Positions 7,563 to 12,364 of a stretch of DNA of 43,214 bases are shown one piece after another. Under the pieces are notes generated by a model, which was not told the DNA's origin, did no database searches, and saw nothing but the letters and a program-made list of their open reading frames with translations. Positions within the stretch are counted from its first letter, which is position 1. Every line of letters starts with the position of its first letter. Made by a program: the position numbers and the translations under genes. Source of the stretch: Solirubrobacteraceae bacterium. GTDB lineage: Bacteria > Actinomycetota > Thermoleophilia > Solirubrobacterales > Solirubrobacteraceae. The DNA lies in assembly GCA_024711025.1 (NCBI GenBank), contig JANJTP010000046.1, positions 1 through 43,214 of the forward strand. The letters are read 5' to 3'.

Positions 7563-7784
7563 GTGACCATCGCAACCGAGCCGACGCGTCTCGCGCTGAA
7601 CGTCTCACAGGCGGCCGACAGGCTCGGCGTGTCGATCGCGACCGTGCGCCGCTGGTCCGATGCCGGCCATCTGCCTGGCTACCGGACCCCCGGCGGCCAG
7701 CGCCGTTTCACGGTCGAGCAGCTCGACGGCTTCATCGACTCCCTGCGCCCGGCGCCCCCGGCGCGCATCCCCACCGGACGCTGA
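7563..7784 (+). CDS. BldC/excisionase-like MerR-type HTH protein
   Basis: This 73-residue DNA-binding protein is essentially one winged HTH of the MerR superfamily: LNVSQAADRLGVSIATVRRWSDAGHLPGYRT, followed by PGGQRRFTVEQLDGFID. This is the layout of BldC-type regulators, which lack the dimerisation coiled coil and bind DNA head-to-tail on direct repeats. The start is GTG at 7563; the open frame continues upstream inside the antisense of PPK2, where no domain is visible. It is divergent from PPK2 (82 bp) and convergent with the HD-GYP gene. It is the first of three MerR-superfamily proteins within 4.3 kb. Confidence 0.8.
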   Translation: MTIATEPTRLALNVSQAADRLGVSIATVRRWSDAGHLPGYRTPGGQRRFTVEQLDGFIDSLRPAPPARIPTGR

Positions 7785-7790
7785 CGGCCG

Positions 7791-7825
7791 CGGCCCGTCC
7801 GCGGGCCGGCTGAGCCGGGCTCAGC
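7791..7825. terminator. Paired hairpins between convergent genes
   Basis: CGGCCCG (7791-7797) pairs with CGGGCCG (7802-7808), and GCTGAGCC (7809-7816) pairs with GGCTCAGC (7818-7825). The second stem overlaps the HD-GYP stop codon. Together they fill most of the 36-bp gap and could terminate both transcripts. Confidence 0.45.
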
Positions 7826-9155
7826 TCGGGCTCGCCGCTTCGCTCATGCGACGCTCCATGTCGAGCTCGCGATCGAAGTCGGCCTCGTCCTGGTGGCGGT
7901 AGTCGGTCCCGCGGCCGGCGAGGAGCTCGGCGAGCACCTCGACGAGATGCCCGTCGAGCTGGCTGCCGGACACGCGGCGCAGCTCGTTCAACGCCTCGAA
8001 CGAGGTCATCGGCGTGCGGTACGTGTCCGGTGCGGTCAGCGTGTCGTAGACCTCGGCGATGGCGACGATCCTCGCGATCTCGGGGATCTGCTCGCCGCGC
8101 AGCCCGCGCGGGTAGCCGCGGCCGTCGATCCGCTCGTGGTGGCAGCGCACGATCTCGCCGACCGGGCCAAAGACCCCGATGTCGCTCAGCAGGTCGGCGC
8201 CGATGTCGGGGTGGCGGCGGATGCCGCGCCAGTCGGACTCGCTGAGCTGCGCGCCGCGTTCCATCACGCGGTCGGACAGCACGAACTTCCCGATGTCGTG
8301 CAGCAGCCCGGCGGTGTGCGCGAGCTCCTGGTCGCGTTCGGCCAGCCCGGCGGCGCGCGCGACGTCGCGTGAGAACATCGCGACCGCCGCGCAGTGGCGC
8401 GCGGCCCGATGGTCGCGCTCGTCGAGCGTGCGCACGAGCGCCGACAGGACCCCCCAGGAGAGGCTCGCGTACTGGCGCGTCTGCTCGCGCGACTGGACGA
8501 CGAGCCGCGCCATGTAGGCGACGGCCGCGATCAGGACCAGCAGCAGCGCGAGCGCAGAGGTGCCGAGCTCGACGTACGCTGCCGCGACTGCGACCGTGAG
8601 CGCGACGCTGATCAGGACCGTCGGCGTGAGCTCGACGAACGCTCGCAGCACGCGCGCCGCACTCGTGCCGTCCAGCAGTGCCATCAGTGGCGCGACGACG
8701 CCGACGTTCAGCACGAAGACGCCGACCGTCACGACGCCCAGGAGCACGTAGAAGCCCATGCCGCCGACCGGGGGGCTCAGAGCTGCGACGAGCATCGCCG
8801 CGAGCAGCGTCGGGGTCGCGGCGCCGGCGAGGTTGATCAAGAGCGCCCGCCAGCGGTAGCGCTGCACCCCCCAGGCCGCGAGCTCCGAGACGACCGGTAC
8901 CGCGAACGCGCTCGCCGGGCCGAGGAACGCCACGGCGATCATGCCGCACGTGAACGCCGGTGAGAACGAGAGCCTCCCCGAGTAGCTCGCGTCGATCAGG
9001 TTCGCTCCGAGACCGACCACCAGCAGCACGAGCAGCGTGGGCTCGAGCAGGTCGCTGTGATCGGTGAACGCGAAGCCGGCCACGCCCGAGGCGAGCAGCA
9101 GGCCGGCGATCCCGACCGCGAGGCCCGGTCGCGGTCGGACGAGTGCGTCCGTCAC
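7821..9155 (-). CDS. Membrane HD-GYP domain phosphodiesterase
   Basis: The 444-residue protein has an N-terminal membrane region of about seven to eight hydrophobic helices (roughly residues 12-235) and a C-terminal HD-GYP domain (about 240-425). HD-GYP enzymes hydrolyse cyclic di-GMP. The catalytic HD is in HTAGLLHDIGK (H286, D287), followed by HPDIGADLL, the GYP motif in HHERIDGRGYPRGLRG (near 345-350), and ARIVAIAEVYDTLTA. All metal-binding landmarks look intact, so an active enzyme is expected. The membrane part does not match a sensor that I can name. The start is GTG at 9155, with a -10 box 7 nt upstream inside a perfect inverted repeat. It is divergent from the first degenerate MerR gene, which suggests a shared pathway. 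Confidence 0.9.
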   Translation of the reverse strand: MTDALVRPRPGLAVGIAGLLLASGVAGFAFTDHSDLLEPTLLVLLVVGLGANLIDASYSGRLSFSPAFTCGMIAVAFLGPASAFAVPVVSELAAWGVQRYRWRALLINLAGAATPTLLAAMLVAALSPPVGGMGFYVLLGVVTVGVFVLNVGVVAPLMALLDGTSAARVLRAFVELTPTVLISVALTVAVAAAYVELGTSALALLLVLIAAVAYMARLVVQSREQTRQYASLSWGVLSALVRTLDERDHRAARHCAAVAMFSRDVARAAGLAERDQELAHTAGLLHDIGKFVLSDRVMERGAQLSESDWRGIRRHPDIGADLLSDIGVFGPVGEIVRCHHERIDGRGYPRGLRGEQIPEIARIVAIAEVYDTLTAPDTYRTPMTSFEALNELRRVSGSQLDGHLVEVLAELLAGRGTDYRHQDEADFDRELDMERRMSEAASPS

Positions 9156-9181
9156 GCGGGGGAAGCTATCGCCCCCGCGTG
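9153..9181 (-). promoter_or_regulatory. Inverted repeat enclosing the HD-GYP -10 box and start codon
   Basis: CACGCGGGGG (9153-9162) and CCCCCGCGTG (9172-9181) are perfect 10-bp arms around a 9-nt centre. The leftward -10 hexamer TAGCTT occupies 9163-9168, and the GTG start is the outer end of the left arm. The transcript is predicted to be leaderless. A protein binding here would cover the promoter. Confidence 0.6.
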
Positions 9182-9284
9182 ACGGCGCACGTCTCGGATC
9201 ACTTACCGCGGACGTACAAGGTCGCGCCTCCTGCGATCAGTGGACCGGGACCGACCCCGTCGATGCTACTTGGATTGCACGTTC

Positions 9285-9316
9285 TTGCACAGGTTGCGAC
9301 GCAGGAACCTGTGCAA
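9285..9316. promoter_or_regulatory. 11-bp dyad, candidate MerR operator
   Basis: TTGCACAGGTT (9285-9295) and AACCTGTGCAA (9306-9316) are a perfect inverted repeat with a 10-nt spacer. Another TTGCAC lies just upstream at 9275-9280. The dyad sits between the divergent HD-GYP and MerR genes, 54 bp before the MerR start, so it could serve both. A single GTGCAA also lies upstream of the second MerR gene at 10900. Confidence 0.6.
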
Positions 9317-9369
9317 AGTCGTCGACGGCCGCGCGGACCTTGCTCTCTTCTGGCCCAATTCCGCAACAC

Positions 9370-10287
9370 GTGCGCACGCTCAAGACCTCGGAGGCGGCAT
9401 CGGAGCTGAACGTCAGCCCCAACACGCTGCGCGCTTGGGAGCGGCGGTTCGGCTACCCGCGCCCGATGCGCACCGAGGGTCGCCACCGCCTCTACACGCA
9501 CGGGGAGATCGCGTCGCTTCGCGACGCCCTCAAGGAGGGGCTGTCGATCTCCTCCGCGATCTCCCGCGCACGCGAGAACCTGCGTGCCGACACGCCGGTG
9601 CTCGTCGGCGCGCTCAGCGCCTGCGAGCTCGACCGCGCCGACGCGGCGATGGAGGCCGCGCTCGCGCTGCGCTCCGTCGAGCGCGCCGTCGAGGAGATCC
9701 TGCTCCCGTCGCTGCACGAGATCGCCGACCGCAGCGGTGAGGCGAGCGCCCCGTGGGCCTTCGCGGTCCAGTGGGCGTCCGACTGGCTGAACCGCGCGCG
9801 CCGCCTGGCTCCCTCCGGCGTCCGGCCGCTCACCGTGCTCGTCGGCGACGCCACGCGCGACGAGCAGGACCCCGACGCCCTCGACACGTGGGCGCTCGAG
9901 CTGTTCGCCCAGCGCGCGGGGGCGGAGGTGCTGACGCTGCCGGTCACCGGCCTCGTCGGCCTCGGCGACGTGCTCGCGAACTTCCACCCGAGGGCCATCG
10001 TGATCGCCGGCTCGCACGCCGGCGACGACGACGTCGCCCGCTGGGCGTACGCCGTGCGCGCGGCCAGCGGTCCGCTGCCGGTCGCGCTGTACCGGCGCGG
10101 CAGCCGACGCCCCGCGGGACGCACCACCGGCACGCTCGTCCTCCCGCACTCCCCGAGCGCCGCGCAGCACGAGCTGATGGCCCTCGTCGAGGGACGCCCG
10201 GCGGCTCCCGTGCCCGCCTCCGAGCCCTCGGTGGAGCGGAGCGCGTCGATCGCGCCCGTCCAGCTACGCCGGAGCGCATCGGCATGA
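9370..10287 (+). CDS. MerR regulator with degenerate cobalamin-binding-like domain (copy 1)
   Basis: The 305-residue protein starts with a MerR winged HTH (residues 3-70; LKTSEAASELNVSPNTLRAWERRFGYP, then GRHRLYT). The C-terminus has the two-part layout of CarH/LitR/MlrA proteins: a helical bundle (about 75-165, with RSVERAVEEILLPSLHEIA) and a Rossmann-like part (about 168-265, with LELFAQRAGAEVLTLPV). The B12-ligand motif DxHxxG is absent; the position reads DEQDPDALDTWAL with no His, so cobalamin binding is not expected. GTG at 9370 is the first start that leaves the HTH intact. A zinc-ribbon/PAS gene follows with an ATGA overlap, and a paralogue lies at 10975. Confidence 0.82.
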   Translation: MRTLKTSEAASELNVSPNTLRAWERRFGYPRPMRTEGRHRLYTHGEIASLRDALKEGLSISSAISRARENLRADTPVLVGALSACELDRADAAMEAALALRSVERAVEEILLPSLHEIADRSGEASAPWAFAVQWASDWLNRARRLAPSGVRPLTVLVGDATRDEQDPDALDTWALELFAQRAGAEVLTLPVTGLVGLGDVLANFHPRAIVIAGSHAGDDDVARWAYAVRAASGPLPVALYRRGSRRPAGRTTGTLVLPHSPSAAQHELMALVEGRPAAPVPASEPSVERSASIAPVQLRRSASA

Positions 10288-10775
10288 CGCGCCCCCAGCT
10301 CCAGGTCCTCCCGGGCTACGGCGAGACCGATGTCGAGCCGTACGTCGACTTCTGCGGCCACTGCGGCAAGCGCCAGGAAGCCGCCGCGCCGGCGAGCCGC
10401 GTGTGCGGCAACTGCCACCTCGGCCTGATCGTCTCCGCGCCGGGGAGCCTCGCCCCCGGTGCGAAGGAGCCCTTCCTGATCGTCGACGGACGGCTCCAGG
10501 TCTGCGCGGTCTCGCGACGCGCCGAGCGGCTGCTCGGGATCGCCGAGGCGGACGTCGTCGATCGGCAGCTCACCGACGTGCTGCTCCCCGCCGACGCCGA
10601 GGCGGTCGGCGTCGAGGGCTTCGTCTCGACGATCGTGCACGCTGCCCGCGGCGACGGGATCGTGCGCGACCTTGTGGTGCGGCCGGCCGGCGAATGGGGG
10701 ATCCGCTGGTTCACGCGGATCGGCCCGTGTGCCACGCCGAGCGCCGTGCTCATCGTTCTTGCGCCCAACGGCTGA
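10284..10775 (+). CDS. Zinc-ribbon plus PAS-like protein coupled to MerR
   Basis: The 163-residue protein has an N-terminal zinc-ribbon-like motif, C24-x2-C27 and C41-x2-C44, followed by a segment that reads as a PAS domain (about 58-160): PFLIVDGRLQVCAVSRRAERLLGI, then EADVVDRQLTDVLLPADAE, ending in a strand SAVLIVLAPNG. It has no output domain. The ATG overlaps the MerR stop codon by 4 nt, so the two proteins are translationally coupled and probably made in similar amounts. I infer a sensory partner of the MerR protein. The assignment as PAS rests on pattern only. A strong hairpin follows 39 bp downstream. Confidence 0.75.
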   Translation: MTRPQLQVLPGYGETDVEPYVDFCGHCGKRQEAAAPASRVCGNCHLGLIVSAPGSLAPGAKEPFLIVDGRLQVCAVSRRAERLLGIAEADVVDRQLTDVLLPADAEAVGVEGFVSTIVHAARGDGIVRDLVVRPAGEWGIRWFTRIGPCATPSAVLIVLAPNG

Positions 10776-10814
10776 CCGGGACCGACAACCTCACAGCCAG
10801 CAGGCGTTGCGAAG

Positions 10815-10839
10815 ACGGCCGGGCCTCGTGCCCGGCCGT
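10815..10839 (+). terminator. Hairpin terminator after the MerR/PAS pair
   Basis: ACGGCCGGGC (10815-10824) and GCCCGGCCGT (10830-10839) pair perfectly over 10 bp with a 5-nt loop, followed by TTCGCTGT. It separates the first MerR unit from the second MerR gene. Confidence 0.7.
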
Positions 10840-10899
10840 TCGCTGTCCGCAGGTCCCTCGGGTGCGGTCTCGTCGGCGCCGCAGCCTGCGATCCTTCCC

Positions 10900-10935
10900 G
10901 TGCAAGAGCCCTGCCGGAACGCAAAAGCCCTTGCG
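10900..10935 (+). promoter_or_regulatory. Candidate operator upstream of second MerR
   Basis: GTGCAA (10900-10905) matches an arm of the dyad at 9285-9316. A short inverted repeat, CGCAA (10920-10924) and TTGCG (10931-10935), follows. Both lie 40-75 bp before the start at 10975. The match is short and therefore tentative. Confidence 0.3.
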
Positions 10936-10974
10936 CGACTTGCCGAAAGCTCCTCAAACCTCGACAAATCCACC

Positions 10975-11859
10975 ATGGGCGTCATCCGCACGAACGCCGC
11001 CGCCGCCATGCTCGGCGTCAGCCCTAACACGCTCCGCTCCTGGGAGCGCCGTTTCGGCTTTCCCGAGCCGCGCCGGACGCAGGGCGGGCATCGGCAGTTC
11101 GACCTCGCCCAGATCGAGGCGCTGCGCGCGGCCTTCGGCGAGACCCACAACGTCTCCTCGGCGATCGCCGTCGCCCGCCAGCGCGGCACCGGGCCCGCGT
11201 CCGACTCGCGGCTGCGCTCCGCCTTCGTACGCTTCGAGGAGATCGAAGCCGGCCGGATCCTCGAGGAGAGCCTCGCCGTGCGCTCCGTCGAGCGCACCGT
11301 CGAAGAGGTCCTGCTCCCGGCGGTCGAGGCGATCGGTGCCGAGCAGCCCGGCGGCCCCGAGCACGGCTTCGCATGGCGCTGGTCGACCAGCTGGCTCGCC
11401 GCCGCGATGCGCGTCACGCCGGCATCCATCCGCGACGAAGCCGTCGTCGTCTTCGACGCCAGCGCCGCACGCGACGACGAAGCGCTCTGGGCGCAGGCGC
11501 TCGAGCTCGCGCTGCGCCGACGCGGCCTGCGAACCCTGACGATCGCGGCATCGCTCGACCCCGCGCGAATGACCCGCGCGCTGCACACGCTCGACCCCCG
11601 GGCGATCGTGCTCACCGGCCACGGCGCCGACCTCGACGCCCTCGGACGGCTCGTCTTCAACGCGCGGCGCATCAGCGGCGACAGCCTCACCGTATGCGAC
11701 TTCCGCGGCGCGCTCCCCGACAGCGGCGCCAGCGTCGTCACCCGGCTGGGCAGGCTGCCGCTCGAAGCGGCCGACCGGCTCGTCGCCGTGCTCGACGGAC
11801 GCGAGCTCTGGCCCGTCGAGCCCGCACGGCTCGAGCCGGTCGCGACGCTCGCGAGCTGA
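10975..11859 (+). CDS. MerR regulator with degenerate cobalamin-binding-like domain (copy 2)
   Basis: This 294-residue paralogue of the 9370 protein has the same architecture. The HTH (residues 3-65) shares VSPNTLRSWERRFGFP and GGHRQF; the helical part shares RSVERTVEEVLLPAVEAI; the Rossmann-like part runs VVVFDASAARDDEALWAQALELALRRRGLRTLTIA. The B12 motif is again missing: where DxHxxG would be, it reads RDDEALW. ATG at 10975 starts the protein just before the HTH. No zinc-ribbon/PAS gene accompanies it; the next gene is a MarR regulator 73 bp downstream. It may have arisen by tandem duplication and divergence. Confidence 0.82.
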   Translation: MGVIRTNAAAAMLGVSPNTLRSWERRFGFPEPRRTQGGHRQFDLAQIEALRAAFGETHNVSSAIAVARQRGTGPASDSRLRSAFVRFEEIEAGRILEESLAVRSVERTVEEVLLPAVEAIGAEQPGGPEHGFAWRWSTSWLAAAMRVTPASIRDEAVVVFDASAARDDEALWAQALELALRRRGLRTLTIAASLDPARMTRALHTLDPRAIVLTGHGADLDALGRLVFNARRISGDSLTVCDFRGALPDSGASVVTRLGRLPLEAADRLVAVLDGRELWPVEPARLEPVATLAS

Positions 11860-11932: not shown

Positions 11933-12364
11933 ATGACGCTCGTTCCCGGCGACCCGCTCGCCCACCGCGCCCTCGAATCCCTACTTAGAGCCGAGGCGAA
12001 CGTCCGACGCCGGCTGGCCCTCGATCTCGACCGCGAGGGACTCTCTCCCACCGGCTTCTTCGTCCTCGTCGTCCTCGAGACCGCCGGTGGAGAGCTCGAG
12101 CTGCGAGCGCTCCGCCGCCGGCTGCAGACCTCGAAGGCCAACGCGACCGAGGTCGTCGACACGCTCGTCGCGCGCGGGCTCGCCACCCGCCGGCGCCTCG
12201 CCGACGACCGGCGCCTCGTCGCCGTCGCGCTGACCGATCAAGGCCGCGAGCTGGTCGGGCGCCTGTTTCCCGAGCACACCGCACGGGTCCAGCACGCATT
12301 CGCCGCGCTGGACGAGCAGGAGAAGCGGTCGCTGGCGCAGATCTGCCGCAAGCTCGCCGCTTGA
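11933..12364 (+). CDS. MarR-family transcriptional regulator
   Basis: The 143-residue protein has the MarR winged-helix layout: an N-terminal dimerisation helix (LAHRALESLLRAEANVRRRL), GLSPTGFFVLVVLETA, the recognition helix region LRRRLQTSKANATEVVDTLVARGL, and the wing ATRRRLADDRRLVAVALTDQGRELV. MarR proteins are usually dimeric repressors relieved by small ligands or oxidation. ATG at 11933 is used; the in-frame GTG at 11891 would add only a basic tail. It lies upstream of a small membrane protein gene whose promoter carries a duplicated dyad, a plausible target of this regulator. Confidence 0.85.
   Translation: MTLVPGDPLAHRALESLLRAEANVRRRLALDLDREGLSPTGFFVLVVLETAGGELELRALRRRLQTSKANATEVVDTLVARGLATRRRLADDRRLVAVALTDQGRELVGRLFPEHTARVQHAFAALDEQEKRSLAQICRKLAA

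Follow-up and report, generated by a model that had tools for sequence, protein, structure and literature searches.

A cluster of regulatory genes in a 43,214-nt stretch of DNA from a Solirubrobacteraceae bacterium (GenBank assembly GCA_024711025.1, contig JANJTP010000046.1, positions 1 to 43,214; hereafter the window) probably forms a MerR-controlled module of cyclic diguanosine monophosphate (c-di-GMP) signalling. In this module the regulator MerR1 would act at a palindrome and govern the divergent promoter that it shares with the gene of a membrane HD-GYP protein, as judged from gene order, motifs and promoter sequence. MerR1 is followed by the gene of a zinc-ribbon/PAS protein and by a second regulator of the same type, MerR2. 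The module is best read as an actinobacterial counterpart of MlrA and BluR of E. coli. The features of the locus are as follows, with the two flanking genes given last.

7821-9155, minus strand: membrane HD-GYP protein, predicted c-di-GMP phosphodiesterase (Pfam HD_5, motif conservation, hydrophobic segments)
9285-9316, strandless: palindrome TTGCACAGGTT-N10-AACCTGTGCAA with perfect 11-bp arms, candidate operator between HD-GYP and MerR1 in their divergent promoter
9370-10287, plus strand: MerR1, MerR regulator of the CarH fold without cobalamin ligand (profile matches, predicted fold, motif absence)
10284-10775, plus strand: zinc-ribbon/PAS protein, ATGA overlap with MerR1 (invariant CxxC pairs, PAS fold)
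10902-10931, strandless: direct repeat GCAAGAGCCCT/GCAAAAGCCCT upstream of MerR2 (spacing 19 bp), evidence weaker than for the palindrome
10975-11859, plus strand: MerR2, second CarH-type MerR regulator without cobalamin ligand, separate lineage (profile matches, quick tree, motif absence)
7563-7784, plus strand: BldC/excisionase-like helix-turn-helix (HTH) gene with either 7524 or 7563 as its start (excise domain E 1.7e-11, HTH_17 E 2.6e-12)
11933-12364, plus strand: gene of the MarR family, in many cases the next one of the cassette (MarR E 4.7e-10, synteny only)

Coordinates and frames of the four open reading frames (HD-GYP, MerR1, zinc-ribbon/PAS, MerR2) were confirmed as given in an initial annotation of this DNA, and so was the ATGA overlap between MerR1 and the zinc-ribbon/PAS gene. 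The BldC-like HTH gene (approximately 7563-7784) and the inverted repeat at 9285-9316 had been omitted there. A search with PADLOC gave weak, generic matches only.

Conservation of the gene order

Synteny was analysed in 146 genomes of the soil family Solirubrobacteraceae, some of which are fragmented assemblies. MerR1 is located immediately divergent from an orthologue of the HD-GYP gene for 38 out of 41 MerR1 genes, and the co-occurrence of both genes gives a Fisher p of 6e-27, with relatedness ignored in the counts as well as in the test. Due to this recurrence the arrangement is considered to be more than chance. The usual order comprises the BldC-like gene (forward), the HD-GYP gene (reverse) and, all forward, MerR1, the zinc-ribbon/PAS gene, MerR2 and in part a MarR gene, with ileS next or near. 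The initial annotation had made conservation of the four-gene neighbourhood its main test, and the order was found in Conexibacter, Paraconexibacter, and many metagenome-assembled genomes.

Of the remaining three genomes with MerR1, two (fragmented assemblies) are without an HD-GYP orthologue, and in one, G238, an HD-GYP gene of a different subfamily is situated two genes upstream in the locus, with the palindrome still ahead of MerR1. HD-GYP without MerR1 occurs in four genomes, in one of which it lies directly beside MerR2. In the Thermoleophilaceae, only the zinc-ribbon/PAS gene, MerR2, the MarR gene, and ileS remain of the cassette.

This distribution bears on the possibility that common descent and a housekeeping location between fumC and ileS account for the neighbourhood, with the genes acting in separate pathways and the palindrome regulating MerR1 alone. 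The fumC-ileS interval retains its synteny throughout the order, and it keeps MerR2 and the zinc-ribbon/PAS gene even without HD-GYP, as would be expected in this case. However, HD-GYP and MerR1 are gained or lost together, G238 has a different HD-GYP in the same locus, and in another genomic place GGDEF and HD-GYP genes accompany an independent branch of MerR (see below). We regard separate pathways as quite unlikely.

The BldC-like gene, convergent with the HD-GYP gene, is part of the conserved cassette and adjoins HD-GYP or MerR in many relatives. An HD-GYP gene of the same subfamily was also repeatedly observed next to a BldC-like HTH gene (L070, L071, L172, and L075), including cases without a nearby MerR of this family.

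The divergent promoter and its palindrome

The promoter region between the HD-GYP and MerR1 genes comprises 214 bp and holds the palindrome at 9285-9316, the core of which has the form TTGCACA-N18-TGTGCAA. With up to five mismatches allowed, 18 out of 33 promoters of relatives contain a TTGCACA-N17/18-TGTGCAA site whose upstream distance to the MerR1 start is 50-54 bp, compared to approximately 0.6 promoters expected to have the site at that position if the best matches were random. In the 18 genomes, pairwise identity amounts to 75% for the half-sites versus 29% for the adjacent 34 bp. Half-sites TGCAAG and CTTGCG are furthermore enriched upstream of MerR2 in relatives.

Within the host genome (3.1 Mb) the locus harbours the only perfect TTGCACA-N18-TGTGCAA site; weaker palindromes are not in excess, the reversed control having more of them. 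One other exact match, to the shorter pattern only, is located on contig C11. The dGTPase and glutamate synthase genes of this contig (L185, L187) look betaproteobacterial as judged by eye from the proteins only, and C11 is therefore probably a contamination. A wider regulon of the palindrome was rejected, since the strong site occurs only at the locus itself and the other short-form match lies on C11. As far as sequence can tell, an operator-like site in a shared promoter is a more direct sign of control at the level of transcription than of a trigger complex between proteins.

MerR1 and MerR2 are CarH-type regulators without the B12 site

Both MerR1 and MerR2 contain a MerR DNA-binding domain that scores above the Pfam cut-off. 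Their best NCBIfam match is the CarH model with 68 and 65 bits, far under the equivalog cut-off of 400. The MlrA model gives 31-32 bits at a cut-off of 417 and matches the DNA-binding domain only, which places neither protein among the MlrA orthologues. An AlphaFold model of MerR1 (mean predicted local distance difference test score, pLDDT, 87) matches full-length Thermus CarH with Z 16.9 over 255 residues, the MerR domain, four-helix bundle and Rossmann-like domain all being present, and matches AppA SCHIC with Z 15.

Neither the D/ExHxxG/P cobalamin motif nor the Wx9EH motif of the helix bundle was found in any of 51 aligned MerR relatives (0/51 each), and no histidine is conserved in these relatives after the DNA-binding domain. 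As a positive control, more distant MerR relatives in the phylum (L210, L211, and L212) carry ELHSVG, DLHTIG or ERHDLG. Due to the absence of the motif in the 51 relatives and its presence in the more distant ones, the cobalamin site is considered lost in the MerR1/MerR2 group, which bears out the missing ligand noticed in the initial annotation and answers its condition that an intact cobalamin ligand would refute the proposal. That the MerR domain binds heme in the manner of AppA SCHIC is not favoured, since the conserved histidine is lacking. According to a quick tree with Shimodaira-Hasegawa-like approximate likelihood ratio test (SH-aLRT) support, MerR1 and MerR2 are separate old lineages and not a recent pair.

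The vacated ligand domain, together with the co-location with HD-GYP and GGDEF genes, would also fit MerR1 or MerR2 being itself the c-di-GMP receptor, with HD-GYP merely setting the ligand level. BrlR of Pseudomonas is a MerR-type c-di-GMP receptor. No c-di-GMP-binding motif was recognised in MerR1 or MerR2, though none was tested for, and nothing specific speaks in favour of such a role, which we consider very unlikely.

In two Conexibacter genomes (L191:6124-12033, L194:1266-7057) MerR1 paralogues are situated directly upstream of genes for a UDP-glucose dehydrogenase, a family-2 glycosyltransferase, and a GlmS-like protein. These loci are suggestive of an exopolysaccharide operon and of matrix control; the palindrome is absent from both.

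A second linkage of MerR genes to c-di-GMP genes

Relatives of the MerR2 lineage are located directly downstream of a GGDEF gene at 14 loci in other Solirubrobacterales. In two of these, GGDEF, MerR, BldC-like and HD-GYP genes follow one another in this order on one strand and the motif reads AGDEF or SGDEF; the other loci have a degenerate GGDEF motif. The GGDEF-linked lineage is split from MerR1 at 100% SH-aLRT in the quick tree, and thus two branches of the MerR family each lie beside c-di-GMP genes. In the L164-L183 loci, a conserved run of dnaX, a ybaB-like gene, and recR ends in a degenerate-GGDEF protein directly upstream of the MerR gene. A degenerate GGDEF domain in this position probably has no enzymatic activity and could serve as a protein partner.

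Such a partner would be in line with a trigger-enzyme complex, as proposed in the initial annotation, in which HD-GYP (GGDEF in other clades) binds the CarH-like domain of MerR, c-di-GMP switches DNA binding, and the palindrome is only autoregulatory. Precedents exist in E. coli, where the C-terminal domain of MlrA contacts an EAL protein (PMC3509220) and BluF contacts BluR (PMC5052742), and two MerR branches adjoin c-di-GMP genes, one of them with the degenerate GGDEF. Due to the parallels of MlrA with PdeR/DgcM and of BluR with BluF, direct contact between HD-GYP and MerR is a real but separate possibility. However, HD-GYP is an integral membrane protein and would tether or exclude a DNA-bound partner, and in the Thermoleophilaceae and elsewhere MerR2 occurs without an adjacent HD-GYP or GGDEF gene. 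The analysis as a whole makes the trigger complex appear unlikely.

The HD-GYP protein

The HD-GYP protein matches Pfam HD_5 with E 1.6e-31 and carries HDIGK and HHERIDGRGYP, in agreement with the class motifs HD and HHE...DGxGYP. Seven hydrophobic segments within residues 12-220, predicted by Kyte-Doolittle analysis only, precede the catalytic part. In 27 orthologues, residues H286, D287, H315, H339, H340, and G347/Y348/P349 show little or no variation. The host genome encodes 6-7 GGDEF domains. On host contig C62, a GGDEF-EAL protein (L188:4269-6218, minus strand) runs into a MerR/BldC-like HTH (HTH_17, residues 458-509), i.e., a c-di-GMP enzyme is fused to a DNA-binding domain.

The zinc-ribbon/PAS protein

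Cysteines C24, C27, C41, and C44, which form two CxxC pairs, are invariant in 38 sequences of the zinc-ribbon/PAS protein. The Pfam PAS match is weak and just below the cut-off; the AlphaFold model (pLDDT 87) gives Z 10.9 to a PAS domain, which indicates a PAS fold. Four loci retain HD-GYP, MerR1, and MerR2, but the gene was not found in them, and it accompanies MerR2 alone where HD-GYP and MerR1 are missing. Hence, the zinc-ribbon/PAS protein goes with the MerR proteins and not with HD-GYP.

All paralogues examined in Conexibacter and relatives are without MerR neighbours, thus this domain combination also occurs independently of MerR. One paralogue of 150 aa is located beside ruvC, ruvA, ruvB, and secD (L202:5236-5688, plus strand), with similar sites in many Thermoleophilia, and is apparently common throughout much of this class.

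Proposed regulation

In the module that we consider probable, MerR1, with its CarH/MlrA fold and lost cobalamin site, would bind the palindrome at 9285-9316 and from there control both the HD-GYP gene and the MerR1-zinc-ribbon/PAS operon by their common promoter. MerR2 would be a regulator related to MerR1, and the promoter of its gene contains similar half-sites. With its B12 site vacated, the CarH-like domain probably responds to protein partners instead, the likeliest of which is the zinc-ribbon/PAS protein, which would be co-produced with MerR1 and bind MerR. The switch would set local c-di-GMP breakdown, and either the PAS/zinc protein or the membrane domain of HD-GYP may receive the signal. 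We infer binding of the palindrome by MerR1 or MerR2, activation or repression from it, action of HD-GYP on c-di-GMP, and the output.

Several observations weigh against this model. The lysine of HDxGK, present in the HD-GYP of the window, varies between K, R, H, and N across the 27 orthologues, and the usual metal-site aspartate of 'aDvYD' is replaced in them by an invariant glutamate; catalysis is therefore uncertain family-wide. A good palindrome at the respective position is absent from 15 of the 33 promoters, and since the genome has only one strong site, few targets other than the switch itself would be under its control. The four loci without a zinc-ribbon/PAS gene likewise count against the model, and synteny inside one family is not equivalent to independent events.

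The initial annotation had proposed a c-di-GMP/MerR switch with the PAS protein as adaptor between HD-GYP and MerR. A module parallel to MlrA/BluR is a fair reading because MerRs of the CarH/MlrA type repeatedly occur beside HD-GYP in one branch or GGDEF in another, and gene order, lost ligand, and HD-GYP/GGDEF neighbours support this part; the adaptor role is unsupported, since the distribution of the gene follows MerR and not HD-GYP. It is doubtful, and we mention it tentatively, that the locus belongs to a widespread actinobacterial switch, independent of MlrA/BluR, in which B12-less CarH-type MerRs are contacted by HD-GYP or degenerate GGDEF proteins together with a zinc/PAS co-sensor and govern surface or matrix functions.

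Comparison with known systems

No account of this locus was found in the literature searched on c-di-GMP in Conexibacter and on MerR proteins with PAS and zinc ribbon. The closest resemblance is to MlrA-PdeR/DgcM and BluR-BluF. According to the initial annotation, the MlrA and BluR domains of E. coli are likewise without a B12 ligand. Here as there, MerR regulators with a C-terminal CarH-like, partner-binding domain are tied to c-di-GMP proteins, although the tie observed here is genomic only, and one branch has a degenerate partner domain (EAL of BluF; GGDEF in the L164-L183 clade). Unlike in E. coli, the neighbour is a membrane HD-GYP or GGDEF protein and not an EAL or BLUF protein, a zinc-ribbon/PAS protein is part of the operon, and the system belongs to another phylum. 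The half-sites of the palindrome are similar to those of the published MlrA site AAAGTTGTACA(12N)TGCACAATTTT, i.e., TTGTACA-N12-TGCACAA (PMC3509220), but their spacing is 17-18 bp instead of 12 and the site is situated within the HD-GYP/MerR1 divergent promoter.

MerR1 shares domain architecture and fold with CarH/LitR of Thermus, which belongs to the B12-dependent photoreceptors, and with CarA of Myxococcus. In contrast to these, MerR1 and MerR2 lack D/ExHxxG/P and Wx9EH, and their context is c-di-GMP and not carotenoids; even the B12-independent CarA retains the B12 motif (PMC9304148). With AppA SCHIC and the PAS domain of PpsR in Rhodobacter, the locus has in common B12-like and PAS domains as partners, putative ones at this locus, and both folds are among the matches of MerR1 and the zinc-ribbon/PAS protein, but the domains are split differently between the proteins and the matches are generic matches of fold only. 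RsiG-WhiG, a c-di-GMP switch of Rubrobacteria and Thermoleophilia including Conexibacter woesei (PMC8325347), is a further case of c-di-GMP-controlled transcription in the same class, but acts by an anti-sigma mechanism with unrelated proteins.

MlrA and BluR are E. coli cases of MerR proteins under c-di-GMP enzymes. The family described here, which has HD-GYP and GGDEF proteins as neighbours and a candidate operator, would add another lineage of this kind, and one that branches deeply. The compact locus with its 32-bp DNA site lends itself to testing in culturable Conexibacter whether the CarH fold has taken one path repeatedly. If the association holds true, it would suggest that a recurrent path of the CarH fold leads from a lost B12 site to recruitment into c-di-GMP signalling.

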